From the NCBI GenBank assembly GCA_029378245.1, contig JARKIF010000013.1:930001-994000 (forward strand): a DNA stretch of 64,000 nt, read 5' to 3'. A model generated the notes under the pieces. It had not been told where the DNA came from and made no database searches. It worked only from the letters and a program-made list of their open reading frames with translations. This DNA is from Roridomyces roridus (Eukaryota; Basidiomycota; Agaricomycetes; Agaricales; Mycenaceae). Positions within the stretch are counted from its first letter, which is position 1. Each line of letters opens with the position of its first letter. The translations under genes and the position numbers were made by a program. Shown piece after piece: positions 2,810 to 57,840 of this stretch.

Positions 2810-4333
2810 ATGTCTCCTACCAGCAACAACTCCAGCTCTCAGCCTCTCACTATTTCCATCGTCGGCGCAGGTATCGGCGGTCTAACAGCGGCAGTTGCGT
2901 TGAGACGGAATGGGCATACAGTTCAGGTACGTTGCTGTTTCCCCCGCGTTCGAGCCACAAATCCTTACATGTCCAGATATTCGAAGCTGCGGATCTCAAG
3001 ACGGAAATCGGCGCTGGATTAGGTGTGCAGGCAAATGCACTCAAGGTCTATGACCACATCGGGTTGTGTAGGGAAAATCTGCATGGGATTCCGTGGCAGG
3101 CAGTGCGTGTTTGCTTTTCCCTTCAATTCGGTGGCTGAGCGACCAACACAGACTGTGAGAATGAGCAGCGACTGTCAAGAGAGAACCATCTGCCCATGGT
3201 TCGTCCCAGGCCTGACGACGAACGTAGGTGCCTCTCCACACATTGGTTCATCTGATTTATAGCCCGCAGGGGCTACTATGTCATCGTATCGATCTCCATG
3301 AAGAGCTGAAGCGGCTTGCGATCGGTGAAGGCCAAGGTCCGCCTGCGATATTGCACCCTGCGACGAAGGTTATTGCGTGCGATCCGGAAGCAGGGACGAT
3401 CACTCTGCAGGGCGGTGAGACCGTCCACGCAGATGCGGTGCTGGGAGCGGATGGAATTCACGTGAGTGTTTAGGCGTTCTAGTGAAAGCTTCAGTCCTCA
3501 AATCTACAGTCTGTCGTGCGCGATCATGTCGTGCAAGATGTCCTCCGCCCGGAAGATACAGGCTTTTCTTGCTTCAGGGCCGTTGTTGATGCCTCGAATG
3601 TGCGTGACATTCCTGAGCTTGAGTGGGTGTATGGCGAGGTCAGTGGGATGCGGAACATTCCCGGAAAGGATGGCTCGCTGCTTGTCGTCTACCCGTGCCG
3701 CGACGGGACCCTTATAAACATCGTGGCATTCTACTCCGACATCTCCGATGCAACAGCTGGTACGTCTAATACACACTCATAATCTGAATACCCAGTGAAG
3801 TCCCCTCGTAGGTTGGTCCGGCCACGCTACAGTTGACGAATTCAAGACCGTATTCCACGAATTTCATCCCAAATTCTTGAACCTCCTCGACCTCCCGCTT
3901 CACAGCCCGATCCACAAATGGAAGCTCCGTGTCCTGCCCCTCCTCCCGACTTGGGTCCGCGGACGGACAGCACTCCTTGGCGACGCGGCACATGCTACGA
4001 TTCCGCATCTCGGGCAAGGCGCGGGCATGTCCATCGAGGATGGCGGGGCGATTGGGTGTTTGCTGCCCGCTGGAACGCGCGCTGAGGACGTCCCTGCGTG
4101 TCTCAAGGCGTATGAGGAGTTGAGGAAGGAGCGTGGGGAGTTCATCAGGGCGGAGTCGGTGGACCAGATGGTGAGGGGATTCGATTTGTACAAGAGTGAG
4201 TGGCTATTTAGATGGTGCCGTGCTTGACTAACCCTTTCGGGCAGATAAAGAGCTGCAGATGAAAATCCTGGGGTATGACCCGATTCGGGCTGTGCAACAG
4301 TTCTATCAGGAGCAGTTCGGTGGGGTCCATTGA
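2810..4333 (+). CDS. FAD-dependent monooxygenase A (salicylate-hydroxylase-like)
   Basis: The spliced exons are 2810-2926, 2977-3102, 3152-3223, 3270-3461, 3510-3759, 3812-4195 and 4245-4333. They sum to 1230 nt and encode 409 residues, with GT-AG introns throughout. The FAD/NAD(P)H motifs of the aromatic-ring hydroxylase family (PF01494) are all present: the Rossmann loop VGAGIGGL near residue 19, the DG motif GADGIHS near residue 170, and the GD motif LLGDAAHATIPHLGQGAG in the C-terminal third. Enzymes of this family insert one oxygen atom into an aromatic or polyketide-type substrate using NAD(P)H. The substrate cannot be read from sequence. It is tandem with a close paralogue downstream. 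The TATTTAAG box lies 50 bp upstream. The gene looks intact. Confidence 0.9.
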
Positions 4334-5175: not shown

Positions 5176-6690
5176 ATGGCGGCAGCACCTTCGCGGCTCC
5201 TCACCATCTCCATCGTCGGCGCAGGTATCGGAGGCCTGACAGCGGCCGTTGCGCTGAGGAGGAATGGGCATATAGTCCAGGTACGTGGCTATCCCCCACG
5301 CTCGAAGTCCTTACATACATTTCCAGATATTCGAAGCAGCGGATTTCAAGACGGAAATCGGCGCTGGATTGGGTTTGCAGGCTAATGCACTCAAGGTCTG
5401 CGACCACATCGGGTTGTGTAGGGAAAACCTACGTGGGGTTCCATGGGACGCGGTTCGTGTTTTGCCTTTTCTTTCAATCTGATGGTTGAACTACTAATAC
5501 AGACTGTGAGACTGAGTAGCGACGGTAAGGAGAGAATCATCTATCCGTGGCTCGTCCCAGGTATGACGACGAACGTAGGTGCCTCTCAACGCATTGATTC
5601 ACTTCGATTTATATCCCGCAGGGACTACTATGTCATCGTACCGATCTCCACGAAGAACTGAGGCGGCTTGCAATTGGTCAAGGTGAAGGTCCCCCTGCGA
5701 AACTGCGGCTTGGATGCAAGGTCATTGCGTGCGATCCGGAAGCAGGGATGGTCATCCTGGAGGGCGGTGAGGCTGTCGAAGCAGACGTCGTTCTGGGAGC
5801 GGATGGAATTCACGTGAGTGTTTAGGCGTTCTAGTGAAAGCTTCAGTCCTCAACTATGCAGTCTGTAGTGCGCAATCATGTCGTGCCAGATGTCCTCCGT
5901 CCGAAGGATACAGGTCTTTCTTGCTTCAGGGCCGTTGTTGATGCCTCGAACATGTGTGACATTCCTGAGCTTGAGTGGGTGTACGGCGAGGTCAGTGGGG
6001 CGCGGAACATTCCCGCCAAGGATGGGTCGTTGCTTGTCGTCTACCCGTGCCGCGACGGGACCCTCATAAACATCGTGGCGTTTAACACGGATGAATCCGA
6101 CGCAGCAGCAGGTGCGCACCTTCCATTCAACTCGTTAAACATCGAATCCGTATGTTTCAGGCTGGACTGGACACAGCACCATCGAAGAGTTCAAGGCCTC
6201 ATTCCAACACAAGTTCCACCCCAACTACCTCCGTCTACTCGACCTACCTGCCCTTGGCCCGATAACCAAATGGAAACTTCGCGTCACGCCCGCGCTGTCG
6301 ACCTGGGTCCGTGGGCGCACCGCCCTCCTGGGCGACGCAGCACACGGTACGCTCCCACATCTGGGCCAAGGTGCCGGTATGGCTGTAGAAGATGCCGCCG
6401 CGTTGGCTTGTTTCCTCCCATCTGGTATTCAGGTGGTAGACGTCCCTGCACGACTGCGTGCCTATTATGAATTTCGGAGAGAACGGGCAGAGTTTGTTAG
6501 GGTTGAATCGGGGAGGCAGCGGTGCAAGGGGTTTGATTTGTATAATAGTAAGTGTGTTGCGTTCGATTTCCCGCACATGCACTGATCTGCTTGCACAGAC
6601 GAGGAGATTCAGAGGTACCTCCTTGACTATGATCCTATTGAGGCTGCACGAGATTTCCTCCGGGAAAAAGCGAGTGTGCGTATTCAATAG
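5176..6690 (+). CDS. FAD-dependent monooxygenase B (tandem paralogue)
   Basis: The exons are 5176-5280, 5327-5452, 5503-5574, 5622-5813, 5862-6111, 6161-6547 and 6599-6690, giving 1224 nt and 407 residues. Intron positions and phases match the upstream copy exactly, so the pair arose by tandem duplication. The motifs VGAGIGGLTAAVALRR, VLGADGIHS and LLGDAAHGTLPHLGQGAG are intact. The N-terminus is four residues shorter and the C-terminus has diverged. The second intron starts with a weak GTTCGT donor where copy A has GTGCGT. The stop lies 43 bp from the stop of the convergent MFS gene. Predicted reaction: NAD(P)H-dependent hydroxylation of an unknown substrate. Confidence 0.9.
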
Positions 6691-6733: not shown

Positions 6734-8531
6734 CTAACCCTCGACCGTCTTCTCCTCCAACTTCCCACCCCCCTGCACCTCCTTCGTAATCCGAATGTTC
6801 TTGATAAACACCGCGGCCAGCAACGCGATCCCCGCCACCGGCACACCCAACACAAAAACAATCCTCAACGCCTCCGCATAGCTCCTCACGACCCCCGGAA
6901 TCAACTCCGGCGCCAAGTCAGTGTAGATGGCTGTAGGCGACTCGCGCACGATGGACACAGGCGCATCAGGCGCGTACTTGCCCAAGTACTTGGTGAGCTG
7001 GGAGGAAAACACCGGCTCGGCTACACCCAGACCAATCGTCCCACCAAGGAACTGAACGAAACTCGCCATCGAGGTCGCTTGTCCGATCAACTTGGGCATA
7101 TCTTTGAATTCGGCCTGAATCGCCAACATGCAGTTCTGCATGCCCAAACCCGTGCCTATACCAGCGAGGATCTGGAATCCGACGAGTCGAGCGACGTGCG
7201 AGTTGGCGTTGAGTGTGTAGAGTAGGCCAGAGCCGATCGCGAGGAATACGGGGCCGGCGAGCAGGAAGGGGAAGTAGTAGCCCGTCAAGCCCACGACCTG
7301 GCCCGAGCCAATGATCGTGATGACCACGCCGAGCATGAACGGCAGCAGGTCAACGCCCGAGTCGGTGGCGGAGCTGTGTCGGGCGGCTTGGTAGAAGATG
7401 GGGATGTAGTACGAGAAGAGGAGGAGAGAGACGCGGGTGAGGAAGGCGTAGAGGATGATTGCGTACACGCTCCGGGAGTGGAAAATGGATGTGGGCACCA
7501 TGGCGCGGTCTTTCTGCCGGATTTCCCAGAAGATGAGCGCGATGGCGAGCACGACGGCGAATACGAAGCAGACGATGACGGCGTAATTACCCCACGCCTT
7601 GGTGTTGCCGCCCCATTGCAGCGCCAACACGAGACTTGTGACCGAGCCCGCAAGCAGGATGGCACCGACAAAGTCCATGCCGAGGAACTGGCAGAGGATA
7701 TCCCGTGGACTGCGTTTCGTAGGATCCGCTCCGAGGGGAAGCTGCGCTTTGAGAATAAAAGTGACGGCTACAAGGGACAGGCCCCCGATAGGGAGGTTTA
7801 TGAAAAACACCCAACGCCATGTTACGTGGTCGGTGAATGCGCCTCCGATGAGGGGACCGATGACCGAGGACAGGCCATAGACGGCGCCAAAGAGACCAAA
7901 GAGGCGCGGTCGGTCTTCAAGGCGGGTAACTTGCACAACAATTTGAAACATGGCGACATCTGGGAAAGTCAGGCTGGTAGCCTACACGAACAGGGAGAGG
8001 ACTCACACATGCCCGCCGCCCCAGCACCTGAGACCGTCCGTCCTGCAATGAGCTGCTCCGCACTCTGCCCCAGGCCGCAGACGAGGGAACCCACTTCGAA
8101 TAGGGTGATGGAGAAAAGCATGATCCATTTCGCAGCCACGACTCGCAGGACCTGCAGGTGGCCATTGGAGGTTAAGGAGCGACGGTGGGTCAAGACAGAC
8201 TAACCTGGCCATAGAAGAGGAGGAACACCGTTTGTGCAAGGATGAAGGCGGTTGAAACCCAGCCCTGGAGACTGAACGCGTCAAAGTCGGACGCGATTCG
8301 AGGGAGGGCGGTCGCGAGGATTGTTTGGTCCAGTGCGATGAGGAGCATGGATAGGAGTAAAGCGACAAAGACGATGGCGAGGTTCCACCCTGTGAGGATT
8401 CCGGACGGGGCGGAGGTTGCCGCAGTGGGCTCATCGCGCTGGGCTGCGTGGTCGGAGGGCGCGGACATGGAGTTCAGAGGAGGGCTGTGGTCTCCCGACC
8501 CGCGAAGAGTCTCGGTTGTTTGTGTGGACAT
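6734..8531 (-). CDS. MFS drug:H+ antiporter, DHA14 type
   Basis: There are three exons on the minus strand: 8531-8205, 8151-8007 and 7959-6734, giving 1698 nt and 565 residues. The first membrane segment carries [17 protein letters not shown], and segment 5 carries the antiporter motif within [20 protein letters not shown]. Both are characteristic of 14-helix fungal multidrug exporters. The polar N-terminal 45 residues are cytosolic. This family exports toxic or secondary metabolites, and the position next to two monooxygenases suggests it exports their product. Introns are short (53 and 47 bp) and in phase. The gene is apparently intact. Confidence 0.9.
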
Positions 8532-21281: not shown

Positions 21282-22055
21282 AGCGTTAATCATGAAACAA
21301 TCCAACCAGCAACCCAACAAGGCAGAAATAAATTACGGCTCACATCAAAGACTGCTCTTCATCTATCGGGCTTGCCCTTGTTGCCGTGAACTTTGGATTC
21401 CTCATGGACGAGTTGCTGTAAGCAGTGGGACGGTCTTGATATTTCGCTTTAGTGAGGGCATGTCGATGCCTGTATTTAGTTTGGGATCTATTATTGGAGT
21501 TTCTGAACAATTTGGATCATGTCTGAAGCCTGGACATCACCTACAGGCTACGGCCCTGACTTTTGCCCAGACGTCCGGACTGTGACCGGAAGACAATACT
21601 CGCCGTTCAATTTTTTGGGAAGTGTTCAACTTGAAGTTGGTTGGACCTGGTTTCTGGCTCTGAATAACTTCCGTTGTGAGGATTTGATTCTTCCGTACTG
21701 CTTCAGGAGTTTGTGAGTTGTGCATTGGTTCAACCTGATTGGTGTGTGCATATGGCATTGGGTTGGGATCTGCACAACGACTATGAGGTATGTAGGGCTC
21801 CTTGAAGCCTCTCGCTAGCCCATTGCTAGCAGGATCATCAACGACAAATTTCCAACGTGTATTTCTCTTTCTTCCATAAACACCGGGCTCGGCATGTCTG
21901 GAACGATTCTCCAAGATTATGTTTCGTCTGTGCGGCAGAACCTGAATGAATTGAAATATTTGTCGCACTACAGCTTGATCTCCGTTCCCAATACATATCA
22001 GGTTCGGGTTTGGCTGCGACCCTTGGCCGTATTTACATAACACAAAGGAGGGGTG
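21282..22055. repeat. Duplicated spacer and peptide-gene promoter, copy 1
   Basis: This stretch aligns with 38780-40265, except that about 720 bp at 39072-39795 of the other copy are missing here. The last 230 bp (from about 21829) are also repeated at 55995-56235 upstream of the intact peptide gene. The block shared by all three copies includes GACAAATTTCCAACGTGTAT and TCAGGTTCGGGTTTG. Conservation up to the TATA box suggests it is the promoter of the secreted-peptide family. Confidence 0.6.
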
Positions 22056-22063
22056 TATATAAA
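22056..22063 (+). promoter_or_regulatory. TATA box of the peptide paralogue
   Basis: TATATAAA sits 64 bp upstream of the position equivalent to the peptide gene's start codon. The equivalent sequence at 56234-56240 is TATAAAA. Confidence 0.5.
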
Positions 22064-22126
22064 GCTCATTATTAAAGTAGCTGGGAAACAAACCTCTCCT
22101 TCATCCCGAGTCCCAATACCGCTTCA

Positions 22127-22511
22127 ATTCAGTTCAACATTACCTTTGCTTCCATTATCGCCTTGGCTGTAACTCTCATCGCTGCTATGCCCGTGGTCAG
22201 TGAACTCCTTGCAGCTGGCTTGGAATCCTAAATGAGCTAAATAAATAAAAATTCAAACCAGTCTCAGCCAATGGGCAGCGTCGGCATCGTTGACACCCCT
22301 GTTCAAGTTGTCGCCAAGTGTGTACTTACTTGGGGTTCCCAGAAATACATAATACTAAATCAACTTGGAATTCAGGCGTTTTCCACAGCCCAGCTGCACC
22401 GGCGGGGGGTGTGAGCAGGAAAAGGCTGCTTTGGAGATACGGTCAAATTTGCCCACCTTATCCAGAAAAAAAGTCCAAAAAGACCTGCCCCCAGTGCCAG
22501 TGATTACATAG
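22127..22511 (+). pseudogene. Secreted-peptide precursor paralogue, start codon lost
   Basis: This is the paralogue of the intact gene at 56294-56620. Exons 22127-22195, 22262-22317 and 22376-22511 sum to 261 nt with one open frame to TAG. The expected ATG reads ATT, and no other ATG lies between the TATA box and this point. A signal-peptide-like stretch follows (FASIIALAVTLIAAMPV). Exon 3 begins with a Lys-Arg site and holds a single Cys-x4-Cys loop (SCTGGGC) followed by an unrelated Lys-rich tail. In-frame stops in intron 1 confirm the splicing pattern used for both genes. Either it is a recent pseudogene or it starts at a non-ATG codon. Confidence 0.65.
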
Positions 22512-44699: not shown

Positions 44700-45430
44700 C
44701 GCGTTTCCGCGGGGAGCAAACACCCAAGCGCCCCGCCATCCTCGACAGCCATGCCAGCGCCTTGCCCAATGTGCGGCAGCGTAGCGTGTGCCGCGTCGCC
44801 CAGAAGCGCTGTGTGACCGCGGATTCAAGTCGGGAGGAGGGGCAGACTGCGGAGCTTCCATTTGTGGATCGGGCTGTGGAACGGGAGGTCGAGGAGGTGG
44901 AAGAATTTGGGGTGAAAGTCGTGGAATTACGGTCTTGAATTCGTCAACTGTGGCGTGGCCGGACCAGCCTACCAGGAAGATTTACTTGGGTGTTCAGAGT
45001 AGGAGTATATTGGACGTACCGGCCGTTGCATCGGAGGTGTCGGAGTAGAACGCCACGACGTTCATGAGGGTTCCGTCGCGGCAAGGGTAGATGTAAAGCA
45101 TCCTGAACGGTCCTTGTGTCGAGACCACGCTACGGGTCCCAACCGCGCCTTCATAAAGCCACTCGAGCTCGGGAATGTCGCGCATCTTGGTGGTTTCGAA
45201 GATCAGGCGAAAGCAAGACAGACCAGAATCCTTCGAATGGACGACTTGTTGTAGGACGTGGTCGCGGACGACGGACTGGGGGGGCACTGAGTGATAAAGC
45301 CAAGGAAGGAGAAATAGGGCGTACATGAATTCCGTCGGCGCCGATAAGCATGTCTGCCTGTGCGACCTCGCCATCCTGCAAGGTAATTGTGGCGGTTTCG
45401 GGGTCACACGCGACCACTTTGGAAAGCCTA

Positions 45431-47985: not shown

Positions 47986-49782
47986 CGTCCTGGGCAGCAC
48001 ACCCTGGTCCACGACGAATATCAACCTCTTATCCGTGATACTCTCCGAGACGTAACATCGGATATTGAACTCGTGCATGCGAGCGAGTATCGTGTCCTTC
48101 AAGCTCTCGTGTTCATGCGGGGAGCCGGCGTTGGGTTCGATGAAAAGAGCTGGGCTGGGTCGAAAAGATCCAACAACGATGCACTGCTTGATGAGGTCGC
48201 CACAGGTCTCATGAACCTTATCTTCGATTGACCTGGAGAACGTATATAGGCTCTCGCTCGTAGACATGGAGCTAGTGTATAATACTCACTTAGTATCGCA
48301 CCAATACGCCGATTTCGTCTTGATCCAATCATCGTTCCGCCCACGGAATACGTACGAGCCATCCGGCTGATCCTCGAAGAGGTCCCCGGAATGAAAATGT
48401 CCGTCGGGGGCCAACAGGTGTGACTGGGGGAGACGGGGGGAGCCAGCAAGGAGGATGAACTCGAAGAGCTGAGTTGATTCATGATCAGCTGCAGACTGAT
48501 CGTCCGTTTTCGAGACAGGATCGAATCTACAAGAAATTGTTGGTATAGGGCGCAGGTAGCGACTGGGTTTTCCGGGGACGGTGGTCATCAGAATACCTAG
48601 TATCCTATCAGTATACGGGTGCATGTTGCAATTTATACAAAGTAGCCGCGCACCACATTCGGTCATGGCATACATACCCTATGAAAGGCTGTCCATCAAC
48701 AGAAACGAAAAAGACAGTGAGCTCACCACCAAATGAATGCCATTGTGGAAACACCAGTCGTCCTCCACAATCGGCAGGTGGACCCCACTGTATGAAATAC
48801 TCCTCATCCCCTTCAGCAGCTCCAATGTTGCCTGATCCCCCATCGCAGCTTGAATATGCGGAGAGAGGAAGGTCCCGAACATGGCCATACGATTCAACCC
48901 ACAGATGTCGACCAACGTAAACAAGTCTTGCGTCGTAGTCGACGTTCTCGGAGGGTACACGATACACGATCCCGTGAAGAGACATACGAGGTATTCTATA
49001 TATAGGTTGTGTCAAGGGCGTATTCAAAGGCGAAGTAGGGATACGTATGCCTCAATACCGTCGCGGAATTAATACTCCCGCGGTTGAGAAAGACGTCCTG
49101 AATGTCGTCCTTGTTGTCGTCCTGCATTGTGTCGACTTCCGCATTGCGGTTCATCGTCACGAAGCGTTGGGTGATCGGGACGAGTTTGGGGCTGCCAGAG
49201 GTAGAGCCTGAAGTAAGATAGATGAAGCACACGTCCGTATCGGATGGAAGATCTTGGATAGATGGCAAGGAGGAGGAGTCGCAGGCGATGTCGTTGATAG
49301 GCGTTATACGTGTGGCCGCGAGTGCATAGTTTGTGATGGAAGACACGAGGGATGCGTCGTACACGATGGCTTTCGTCTCGGCCTTTCGCATAAGCTCGGA
49401 GATGATGGACTCGTCCATTGACCGAGGAGGAATCATCAGGGGCACGTAACCGAGTCGAGACAAAGCAATGGTGTAAACAAAGTCGAGATATGGCCGTCCA
49501 TCCATCCTGTTCAAAGATAAGCGGGCGGCGTAGAATAAACGAGGGGATAAATGACAGCATGCCAATGACAGAGCGAGACGGTATTTCTTTTGCTTGGAGG
49601 TCGGCCAATAGAGTGCATGCCACTTGATCGACCTCGGAGGAAAATACAGCGACGGTAACGTCCACCCACTCCTGAGGGAATCCAGACTTTGGAATTTTGA
49701 AGAGAATTGTACCGCCTCGCGTCAGCGCGCGGTCTTGCAAAAGCGCGATATGATTCAGCTCGAGATCGAGAGTGTTGTCCAT
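47986..49782 (-). CDS. NRPS-like adenylation-domain protein, C-terminally truncated
   Basis: This minus-strand gene begins MDNTLDLELNHIALL at 49782. Later exons include about 49505-49059, 48995-48730, about 48678-48655, about 48604-48288 and 48232-47986. It matches fungal AMP-binding proteins of the NRPS-like/reductase type: YLTSGSTSGSPKLVPIT (A3), MYAMTECG, HSGDLF and RNDDWIKT (A7-A8), and DKRLIFVVDQGVLPRT. Such domains activate a carboxylic acid as an acyl-AMP. The sequence stops at a GT donor just where the A10 lysine (KGN) exon should follow, and no carrier or reductase domain is present. The first intron lacks a clear GT donor. It is likely inactive or recently truncated. Confidence 0.7.
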
Positions 49783-56293: not shown

Positions 56294-56620
56294 ATGCAGT
56301 TCAACATCAAGTTTGCTTCCATCATCGCCCTGGCGGTGACTCTCGTCGCTGCTACGCCCGTGGTCAGTGAACTTGCTCTGAATCTTTACTTACATGAAGA
56401 GGCTAAAAATTCAAAACAGGCTGAGCCAAGGGGCATCGTTGACACCACTCTTCAAGTTGTCGCCAAGTGCATATTGCATTTACTTACTTGGGTTCCCAGA
56501 AATGCATAATACTAAATCAACTTGGATTTCAGGCGCAATGACATGCCCTGCACCGGTGTGTCGTGTGAGCTCAAGCGCAATGACAGGCCCTGCACCGGCG
56601 TGTCGTGCCAGCTTAAATAG
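56294..56620 (+). CDS. Secreted Kex2-type repeat peptide precursor
   Basis: Three exons (56294-56362, 56420-56466 and 56533-56620) give 204 nt and 67 residues. The order is a signal peptide (residues 1-20, hydrophobic core FASIIALAVTLVAA), a short spacer (AEPRGIVDTTLQVVAK), then two tandem 14-residue units, RNDMPCTGVSCELK and RNDRPCTGVSCQLK. Each unit is preceded by Lys, so each starts at a Lys-Arg site. Kex2-like cleavage and basic-residue trimming would release two 12-residue peptides, each with Cys-x4-Cys. I know of no named family with this core, and its role is unknown. Intron 1 is 57 bp and could be read through in frame, but the paralogue at 22127 has stops there, supporting removal. 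The gene lies inside decayed monooxygenase copy E. Confidence 0.7.
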
Positions 56621-56880: not shown

Positions 56881-57840
56881 CGAATCGGAGGAGGGTGCAA
56901 GAATTTGGGATGGAAGTCGTGGAATACAATACGGTCTTGAATATTTATTTCGGCGGGGAGGTCGAGGAGGTGGATGAATTTAGGATGGAAGTCGTGAAAT
57001 ATGGTCTTGAATACCATCGACTGTAGCGTGGCCGGACCATCCTATGAGGAGGATTCAACTAGAGATTCGGAATATGAGTGTAATGGACGTACCGGCCGTC
57101 CCATCGGAGGTGTCGGAGTAGAACGCCACGACATTAATGAGGGTTCCGTGAAGGCACGGGTAGATGTAAAGCATCCTGAGCGGTCCCTGTGTCGAGACGA
57201 CGCTACGAGTACCCACGATGCTGTCATACAGCCACTCGAGCTCGGGGATGTCGCGCATCTTGGCGGTTGGTTTCCAAGACAAACGGAAGGCTGAAGCAAG
57301 ACAGACCAGAATTCCTAGGATTCCGAATGGATGACCGTGCTGCAGGACGACGGACTGGGAGGGCATTGCGTGCTAAAGATAAGCCAGGGGAAACAGGGCA
57401 TACATGAAATTCCATCGTCTGCCAGTACGACCTCGCCATCTTCCAAGGTAATCTTGACAGTTTCGGGATCACACGCAACCACCACTTTGGTATTTACCGA
57501 GGCGCAAATTCGCAGACGGCTCTTGACCCTCAAGACGTTTGAGTTCCTCGTACAAATCGTTGCGATGAACGAATACTTAATCCCTGTAATGAATGAATCG
57601 TCTCCAAAACAAACGGGAACATACATTCGCCTGATGTAGTCAGTCGTCCACCTTCAAAGAACCGAGTTGTTCTGCACCGCCGATCTCTGTCTGTCTTGAT
57701 TTCCACGGCCTCGAATATTTAGAGAACAGGGCTGAGCGGGATGTACATAGAGGAAGAGAAAGAGGAGCGCCGTACCTGGACGTTATGGCCATTGCGCTGC
57801 ATGTTAGACCACCGATACCTGGACGACCAAACTACAAAAT
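56880..57840 (-). pseudogene. Monooxygenase copy E, 5' and middle pieces
   Basis: On the minus strand the pieces are an exon 1 remnant with IGGLT near 57830-57790, an exon 2 remnant with IFEAVEIKTDR near 57715-57670, the end of exon 4 near 57485-57410, a largely readable exon 5 (MRDIPELEWLYDSIVGTRSV) at about 57360-57090, and the start of exon 6. Exon 6 contains a partial tandem duplication: the word for FKTVFHDFHPKF occurs twice between 56890 and 57015. Frames are broken. Not functional. Confidence 0.75.

Follow-up and report, generated by a model that had tools for sequence, protein, structure and literature searches.

A clustered family of predicted Lys-Arg-repeat precursors of small two-cysteine peptides in Roridomyces roridus

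The gene at positions 56294–56620 of the window, the 64-kb stretch of Roridomyces roridus (Mycenaceae) DNA analysed here, appears to belong to a clustered family of predicted secreted precursors from which a Kex2-type cut after Lys-Arg would release CX4C peptides of 12 to 15 residues; we give this reading a probability of roughly 0.72. The family would fall among the Kex2-processed repeat proteins (KEPs), a known class that is common in mushrooms. The family itself seems to be undescribed and has so far been found only in Roridomyces, meaning that searches of predicted proteins found none elsewhere. The DNA establishes the open frame, its repeat units and a set of paralogues, as well as differences between the units of the six-unit copies that are mostly synonymous, and there is good evidence for a working KEP family. 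A secreted Lys-Arg-repeat precursor, as proposed in the preliminary description, remains the best reading, with paralogues of three, six and six units that keep Lys-Arg and CxGxxC and with differences between the units of the six-unit genes that are mostly synonymous.

When spliced in silico, the three exons of the window gene give one open frame of 67 residues, MQFNIKFASIIALAVTLVAATPVAEPRGIVDTTLQVVAKRNDMPCTGVSCELKRNDRPCTGVSCQLK, arranged as a leader (MQFNIKFASIIALAVTLVAATPV), a pro-segment (AEPRGIVDTTLQVVA), KR-NDMPCTGVSCEL and KR-NDRPCTGVSCQLK (Table 1). The earlier term "intact gene" is right for this frame, as predicted from the sequence. The hydropathy of the leader on the Kyte-Doolittle scale, used here in place of a trained predictor, reaches a maximum of 2.86 over the 11 residues IIALAVTLVAA. 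Signal peptidase follows a small-residue rule at its cut site, and a cut between VAA and TPV in the leader fits that rule. Two paralogues have the same intron 2 junction in their public models (P0001 and P0002), and a branch-like site of the CTAAA type lies 21 nt before the 3' end of this intron in the window gene. The first Lys-Arg is made by splicing, with intron 2 dividing the Lys codon (AA^G) in nine of nine complete gene models of the family. A TATA-like box is located 56–71 nt 5' of the ATG in five of the nine models and at 105 nt in a sixth, and none was found within 120 nt 5' of the ATG in L011, L012 and L023.

Table 1. Features of the window gene, of a second family member and of neighbouring genes. 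Positions are those of the window unless a contig or locus is named.
Feature	Position	Strand	Basis or remark
TATA-box-like TATAAAA	56234–56240	+	60 nt 5' of the window-gene start codon
Exon 1, 23-residue leader, predicted signal peptide	56294–56362	+	hydrophobicity, paralogue leaders
Intron 1, GTCAGT...ACAG, 57 nt	56363–56419	+	junction same in public model P0001 of L007
Exon 2, pro-segment AEPRGIVDTTLQVVA and first two bases of Lys	56420–56466	+	
Intron 2, GTGCAT...TCAG, 66 nt	56467–56532	+	interrupts the Lys codon of the first Lys-Arg
Unit 1, exon 3, (K)R-NDMPCTGVSCEL	56533–56572	+	
Unit 2, KR-NDRPCTGVSCQLK	56573–56617	+	followed by stop, 56618–56620
L010, second family member in the window	22033–22416	+	73% identical DNA, without start codon
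FAD-monooxygenase-like piece directly downstream of the window gene	57091–57261	-	1 of 7 places on C35
Other FAD-monooxygenase-like gene or fragment	3600–3761	+	
Other FAD-monooxygenase-like gene or fragment	5952–6113	+	
Other FAD-monooxygenase-like gene or fragment	45018–45188	-	
MFS transporter frame	6734–7981	-	MFS_1 over Pfam cut-off
MFS transporter frame	L077:2–1015	-	~2.8 kb from six-unit gene L023
Abhydrolase_3 copies	C35 1079644–1080021, 1118589, 1134059, 1136316, 1138180, 1200696, 1219213, 1221068		

Exon 3 (56533–56620) carries both units, which are 42 nt long and 88% identical and form the sole adjacent 42-nt pair with at least 34 of 42 matches in the 64-kb window; they were not listed by Tandem Repeats Finder, run on the window with a score of 40. 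As the preliminary description stated, two residues differ between them, M/R and E/Q. The final unit closes with Lys and a stop codon, without Arg, so the predicted peptide has 13 residues, or 12 if the Lys is trimmed. All 17 units of the four multi-unit genes (the window gene, L007, L023 and L060) start with Lys-Arg and contain CxGxxC; two units of L060 have Lys-Lys-Arg in place of Lys-Arg, and the units of L023 and L060 are 17–18 residues long and of the TSPGCLGEGCDHNNSKR type. A degenerate DNA pattern for PCTGVSC has five matches in the 90.8-Mb genome (two in the window gene, two in L007 and one in L008, all on one contig), and a control pattern for the reversed motif has none. Three such core patterns, searched in the whole genome, gave 5, 7 and 13 matches, all within the family, and their reversed controls gave 0, 2 and 0. 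The [M+H]+ values predicted for the disulphide forms are 1266.480 for NDMPCTGVSCEL, 1290.557 for NDRPCTGVSCQL, 1296.454 for NDMPCTGESCEL, 1488.548 for TSPGCLGEGCDHNNS and 1572.605 for TLPECVGQGCDHNDS, the reduced forms having two hydrogens more; by computation NNRPCTGVSCEL is isobaric with NDRPCTGVSCQL.

DNA and protein searches of the R. roridus genome located the leader at 14 places, 12 of them on the window's contig (C35) between 952 and 1,298 kb, a span of ~345 kb, and the remaining two on C475 and C78, where they are close copies of the C35 places at 952 and 1,203 kb. Nine places yielded complete three-exon models, which share a related leader, the positions of both introns and the spliced Lys-Arg. 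The window gene has two units, L007 (1,031 kb, 84 residues) has three, and L060 (1,062 kb, 144 residues) and L023 (1,094 kb, 142 residues) have six each. The other five models keep the leader Lys-Arg only and have no Lys-Arg-separated repeats: L008 (77 residues) contains CIGDGC and CTGVSC cores with no Lys-Arg between them, and L009, L011, L012 and L013 contain a single CTGGGC core each. Not every family member has the Lys-Arg-repeat layout. The conservation of Lys-Arg/Cys units, whose loss in homologues would count against the preliminary description, holds for every unit of the four multi-unit genes and not for these five models. The models were made by a script that was applied to all 14 places and required a YAG acceptor, two Cys and a Lys-Arg or Lys-Lys preceded by Ala. 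It gave no complete model for L010, L029, L031, L032 and L033, and some of these places fail only because of its demands. The translation of L033 has one unit (RISPRCLGKGC) behind the leader, and this place may be undercounted; L009 (C475:124778-125165) is a near-copy of L010 with a complete model. One pattern search gave 15 places, of which those on C1 and C13 were dropped, their translations being without the family leader, and it missed L060, which was recovered separately. Broken stretches that resemble CLGxxC units are present at C109:43006-43098 (-) and C139:9455-9547 (-), on near-identical contigs outside the main cluster, and were excluded from the 14. The C475/window pair, the C78/C35-1203-kb pair and an equal-score pair of UstYa matches on C57 and C162 suggest that parts of the assembly contain both haplotypes.

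The units were compared by minimum codon changes in a binomial test, for which simulation put the synonymous fraction under neutrality at ~0.26. Synonymous and nonsynonymous changes number 14 and 3 in L023 (p = 1.7e-6) and 17 and 8 in L060 (p = 1.4e-5), p values that assume independent codon changes and would be weakened by gene conversion between units. The corresponding counts are 4 and 4 in L007 (p = 0.12) and 3 and 2 in the window gene (p = 0.11), where the test is too small for one copy. Unit-to-unit pN/pS is 0.09 in L023, 0.19 in L060, 0.28 in L007 and 0.19 in the window gene. Units 1–5 of L023 have the same 17 residues despite nine synonymous changes, and their Lys-Arg codons are recoded as AAG CGG, AAA CGG and AAA AGG. 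These comparisons show selection on the predicted peptide and the predicted cut site in L023 and L060, which are likely to be functional because their repeated peptides are largely constant while the DNA differs; for the window gene, we infer selection.

The leader of L007 is identical to that of the window gene at 23 of 23 residues, and those of six others at 15 to 21 of 23 (eight of the nine models were compared, with L012 omitted). At the DNA level, the window gene was set against L008, L009, L011 and L013, the values below being given in this order as identical over aligned positions in short gapped alignments. Exon 1 is identical at 62, 61, 57 and 60 of 69 positions (83–90%), exon 2 at 38/41, 42/47, 43/47 and 30/44, intron 1 at 38/43, 36/57, 42/52 and 36/49 (63–88%), and intron 2 at 49/55, 53/57, 44/53 and 42/54 (78–93%); exon 3 with some 3' flank is identical at 44/69, 46/80, 32/54 and 31/54 (57–64%), with many gaps. 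In these four comparisons, the core exon has changed more than exon 1 and intron 2, and intron 1 is intermediate. The order is reversed against the nearest paralogue, L007, with 85/88 in exon 3, 50/64 in intron 2 and 57/57 in intron 1. Such a divergence of the core exon would be expected from relaxed constraint as much as from diversifying selection. Conotoxins and MSDIN genes are gene families with a conserved leader and a variable core, and the present family, which is unrelated, resembles them only in the pattern of a leader that is more conserved than the core exon among distant paralogues.

Two public proteins have the family leader, P0001 (FB45DRAFT_869595) and P0002 (FB45DRAFT_1030853), both annotated as "hypothetical protein" of R. 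roridus. P0002 is the L008 model residue for residue. P0001 has both introns in common with the L007 model and adds a third that starts inside unit 1; this intron would destroy the units, and P0001 continues into sequence antisense to a hydrolase-like remnant. The third intron is probably a prediction error. Protein searches matched L008 exactly and L007 in a differently spliced form, and found none of the other seven complete models, including the window gene, among public proteins. This suggests that genes of this kind are lacking from public protein sets or wrongly spliced in them, and that surveys based on such sets would undercount the class. Homologues outside Roridomyces were absent from the protein searches, which returned two proteins, both from Roridomyces, among 3 and among 2,443 candidates. 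With the L023 and L060 proteins as queries, 7,992 candidates were scored and none was listed at an E value of 1 or better, a search whose sensitivity is modest because P0001, with its related leader, also went unlisted. Pfam gave weak rows and no credible domain for the window gene, L007, L023 and L060. The row for PF03108 (MuDR) on L060 (25.8 bits against a cut-off of 25, E = 8.6e-6) was rejected, because no stretch passes alone and the score merely adds up an 18-residue match from one repeat to the next. For zf-RING_6 on L060, which had two stretches, the score was 10.9 bits, well below the cut-off of 35. A PDB search with L023 gave a single row, at E = 0.82, which was rejected, and no solved relative; Rfam gave no match in the window. 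The motifs PCTGVSC, CLGEGC and ECLGGGC were absent from the main texts of the papers searched. The earlier statement that the core cannot be matched to a described family agrees with these searches.

The precursors resemble the KEPs of Agaricomycetes (PMC9769878; PMC7329392; PMC6339444) in having a hydrophobic leader, a pro-segment and tandem, near-identical peptides separated by Lys-Arg, and also in having no known domain and sequences found in a single genus. The class is defined by near-identical units of at least 8 residues with KR, KK, RK or RR between them, and the window gene, L007, L023 and L060 have such units, set apart by Lys-Arg. Published surveys used annotated proteins and a threshold of at least three repeats (PMC6339444; PMC7329392), which L007, L023 and L060 pass with three, six and six units. 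The window gene would escape them because its two units are below this cut-off, and the six-unit genes were likely invisible to them because L023 and L060 were not found among annotated proteins. KEP sequences are mostly unique to a genus (PMC7329392), which makes a core without a match nothing out of the ordinary. Neither PMC9769878 nor PMC7329392 uses the words cysteine or disulfide in its main text. Mass spectrometry has revealed peptides from precursors with the KEP layout in Coprinopsis, Lentinula and two Pleurotus species; when six Coprinopsis precursors were knocked out, axenic cultures showed no obvious phenotype, and the authors interpret this as pointing to a role in biotic interactions (PMC9769878). 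Most KEPs are without a known role, and C35 offers a compact, testable set: on a single contig there are precursors of two, three, six and six units, constrained six-unit peptides and predicted masses.

In the proposed mechanism, the hydrophobic core of the leader would route the precursor to the endoplasmic reticulum, and a kexin would cleave after every Lys-Arg. Kexin-type P_proprotein domains exceed the Pfam cut-off at two places in the genome, one of which was seen again on an ORF; a protease domain beside the P domain was not recovered among the five ORFs scanned. A Kex1-type carboxypeptidase would then remove the trailing basic residues, and oxidation in the endoplasmic reticulum would probably close the C-x-G-x-x-C ring. 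The ring is not necessarily the active form in this family, because the disulphide form of the two-Cys α-pheromone of Fusarium oxysporum is inactive (PMC7289986). The peptides would have an extracellular role, most likely that of diffusible factors aimed at other organisms or mycelia. Duplication, changes in unit number and changes in a core exon that follows a conserved leader could generate a set of related peptides.

That same α-pheromone (WCTWRGQPCW) and other two-Cys α-pheromones of ascomycetes are likewise short and secreted, with two Cys and an internal Gly, and come from Kex2 repeat precursors (PMC7289986), and among the α-pheromone-like KEPs reported from basidiomycetes there is one with two Cys (PMC6339444). 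An α-pheromone-like signal, processed by Kex2, Kex1 and STE13 and sensed by a Ste2-type receptor, is nevertheless very unlikely, and the pheromone branch of the preliminary description is not borne out: an STE13 dipeptide (X-Ala or X-Pro) follows Lys-Arg in 0 of 17 units, the spacing is CX4C rather than CX6C, the units have no Trp, and this basidiomycete family consists of several diverging paralogues rather than a single conserved peptide. A search for STE2 had no match in the genome and none in control genomes either, and is hence uninformative. It is still less probable that the precursor is a small cysteine-rich secreted protein that stays uncleaved, its units folding together with Lys-Arg as a linker. 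Cleavage in the family is predicted, and L008 has its two Cys pairs without an intervening Lys-Arg; however, Lys-Arg is retained and synonymously recoded in the six-unit genes, a unit number that varies from two to six suits independent peptides better than one fold, and the Pfam and PDB searches provided neither a credible domain for the four precursors nor a relative of L023. Unlikely, too, is the view that the family is decaying, with the window copy and most paralogues as relics or unexpressed and at most the six-unit genes still working. It draws on the five of 14 places without a complete model, L010 with its missing start codon among them, on the lack of significant constraint in the two-unit and three-unit copies, and on the missing public entry for the window gene. 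In contrast, the window gene is intact in its frame, its two introns and its TATA-like box, its exon 1 has the high identity to L008, L009, L011 and L013 given above, and L007 combines an identical leader with an extra unit.

Modification of the core by neighbouring enzymes, an FAD monooxygenase and an α/β hydrolase, in a ribosomally synthesized and post-translationally modified peptide (RiPP) pathway without UstYa, is unlikely. In its favour, FAD-monooxygenase-like pieces occur at seven places on C35 between 933 and 1112 kb, four of them in the window. The piece next to the window gene has no Pfam or PDB match of its own and is assigned to this class because related window frames match FAD families (6139–6585, FAD_binding_3, 35 bits; 5838–6470, a PDB FAD monooxygenase, E = 0.0012). 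An Abhydrolase_3 family is amplified, with eight close copies on C35 and others on C73, C78 and C1; three copies converge with L008, L011 and L013 within ~2.2 kb, and the two MFS transporter frames of Table 1 would also suit such a pathway. Against it, a stop interrupts one of the three hydrolase pieces that converge with precursors, the monooxygenase piece adjoining L007 contains stops, and the central stretch of the hydrolase is missing beside both the window gene, where only a stretch like the C terminus is present, and L007. Around the six-unit genes, the MFS transporter was the sole Pfam domain in the eight ORFs scanned (61 of at least 100 residues were listed). The co-duplicated monooxygenase and hydrolase genes may encode enzymes that tailor the peptides, or may simply have hitch-hiked on the duplications. 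Dikaritins (ustiloxin and relatives, the UstYa RiPPs) share the arrangement of a leader and cores separated by Lys-Arg, but the 17 units have no Tyr, and of the at least 28 matches to UstYa (PF11807) listed in the genome by an exon-by-exon search whose counts are lower bounds, none is on C35. What C35 offers to the modified-RiPP branch of the preliminary description is the co-duplicated enzyme genes, of putative relevance, and none of the listed UstYa matches. The fullest form of this idea, a Roridomyces-specific arsenal of ring peptides with about a dozen clustered copies (seven complete) that retain the leader, the intron positions and the first Lys-Arg while diversifying selection acts on the core exon, with CxGxxC peptides tailored by the co-duplicated monooxygenases and hydrolases, and hence with a UstYa-free RiPP pathway in a basidiomycete, we regard as decidedly unlikely. 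The Pfam scan of the window covered 48 of its 86 ORFs of at least 130 residues; MFS_1 and FAD_binding_3 exceeded their cut-offs, and AMP-binding and New_glue (two ORFs) were below theirs. The AMP-binding row is a piece of such an enzyme at 48996–49721 (-), with 29.0 bits against a cut-off of 29.9.
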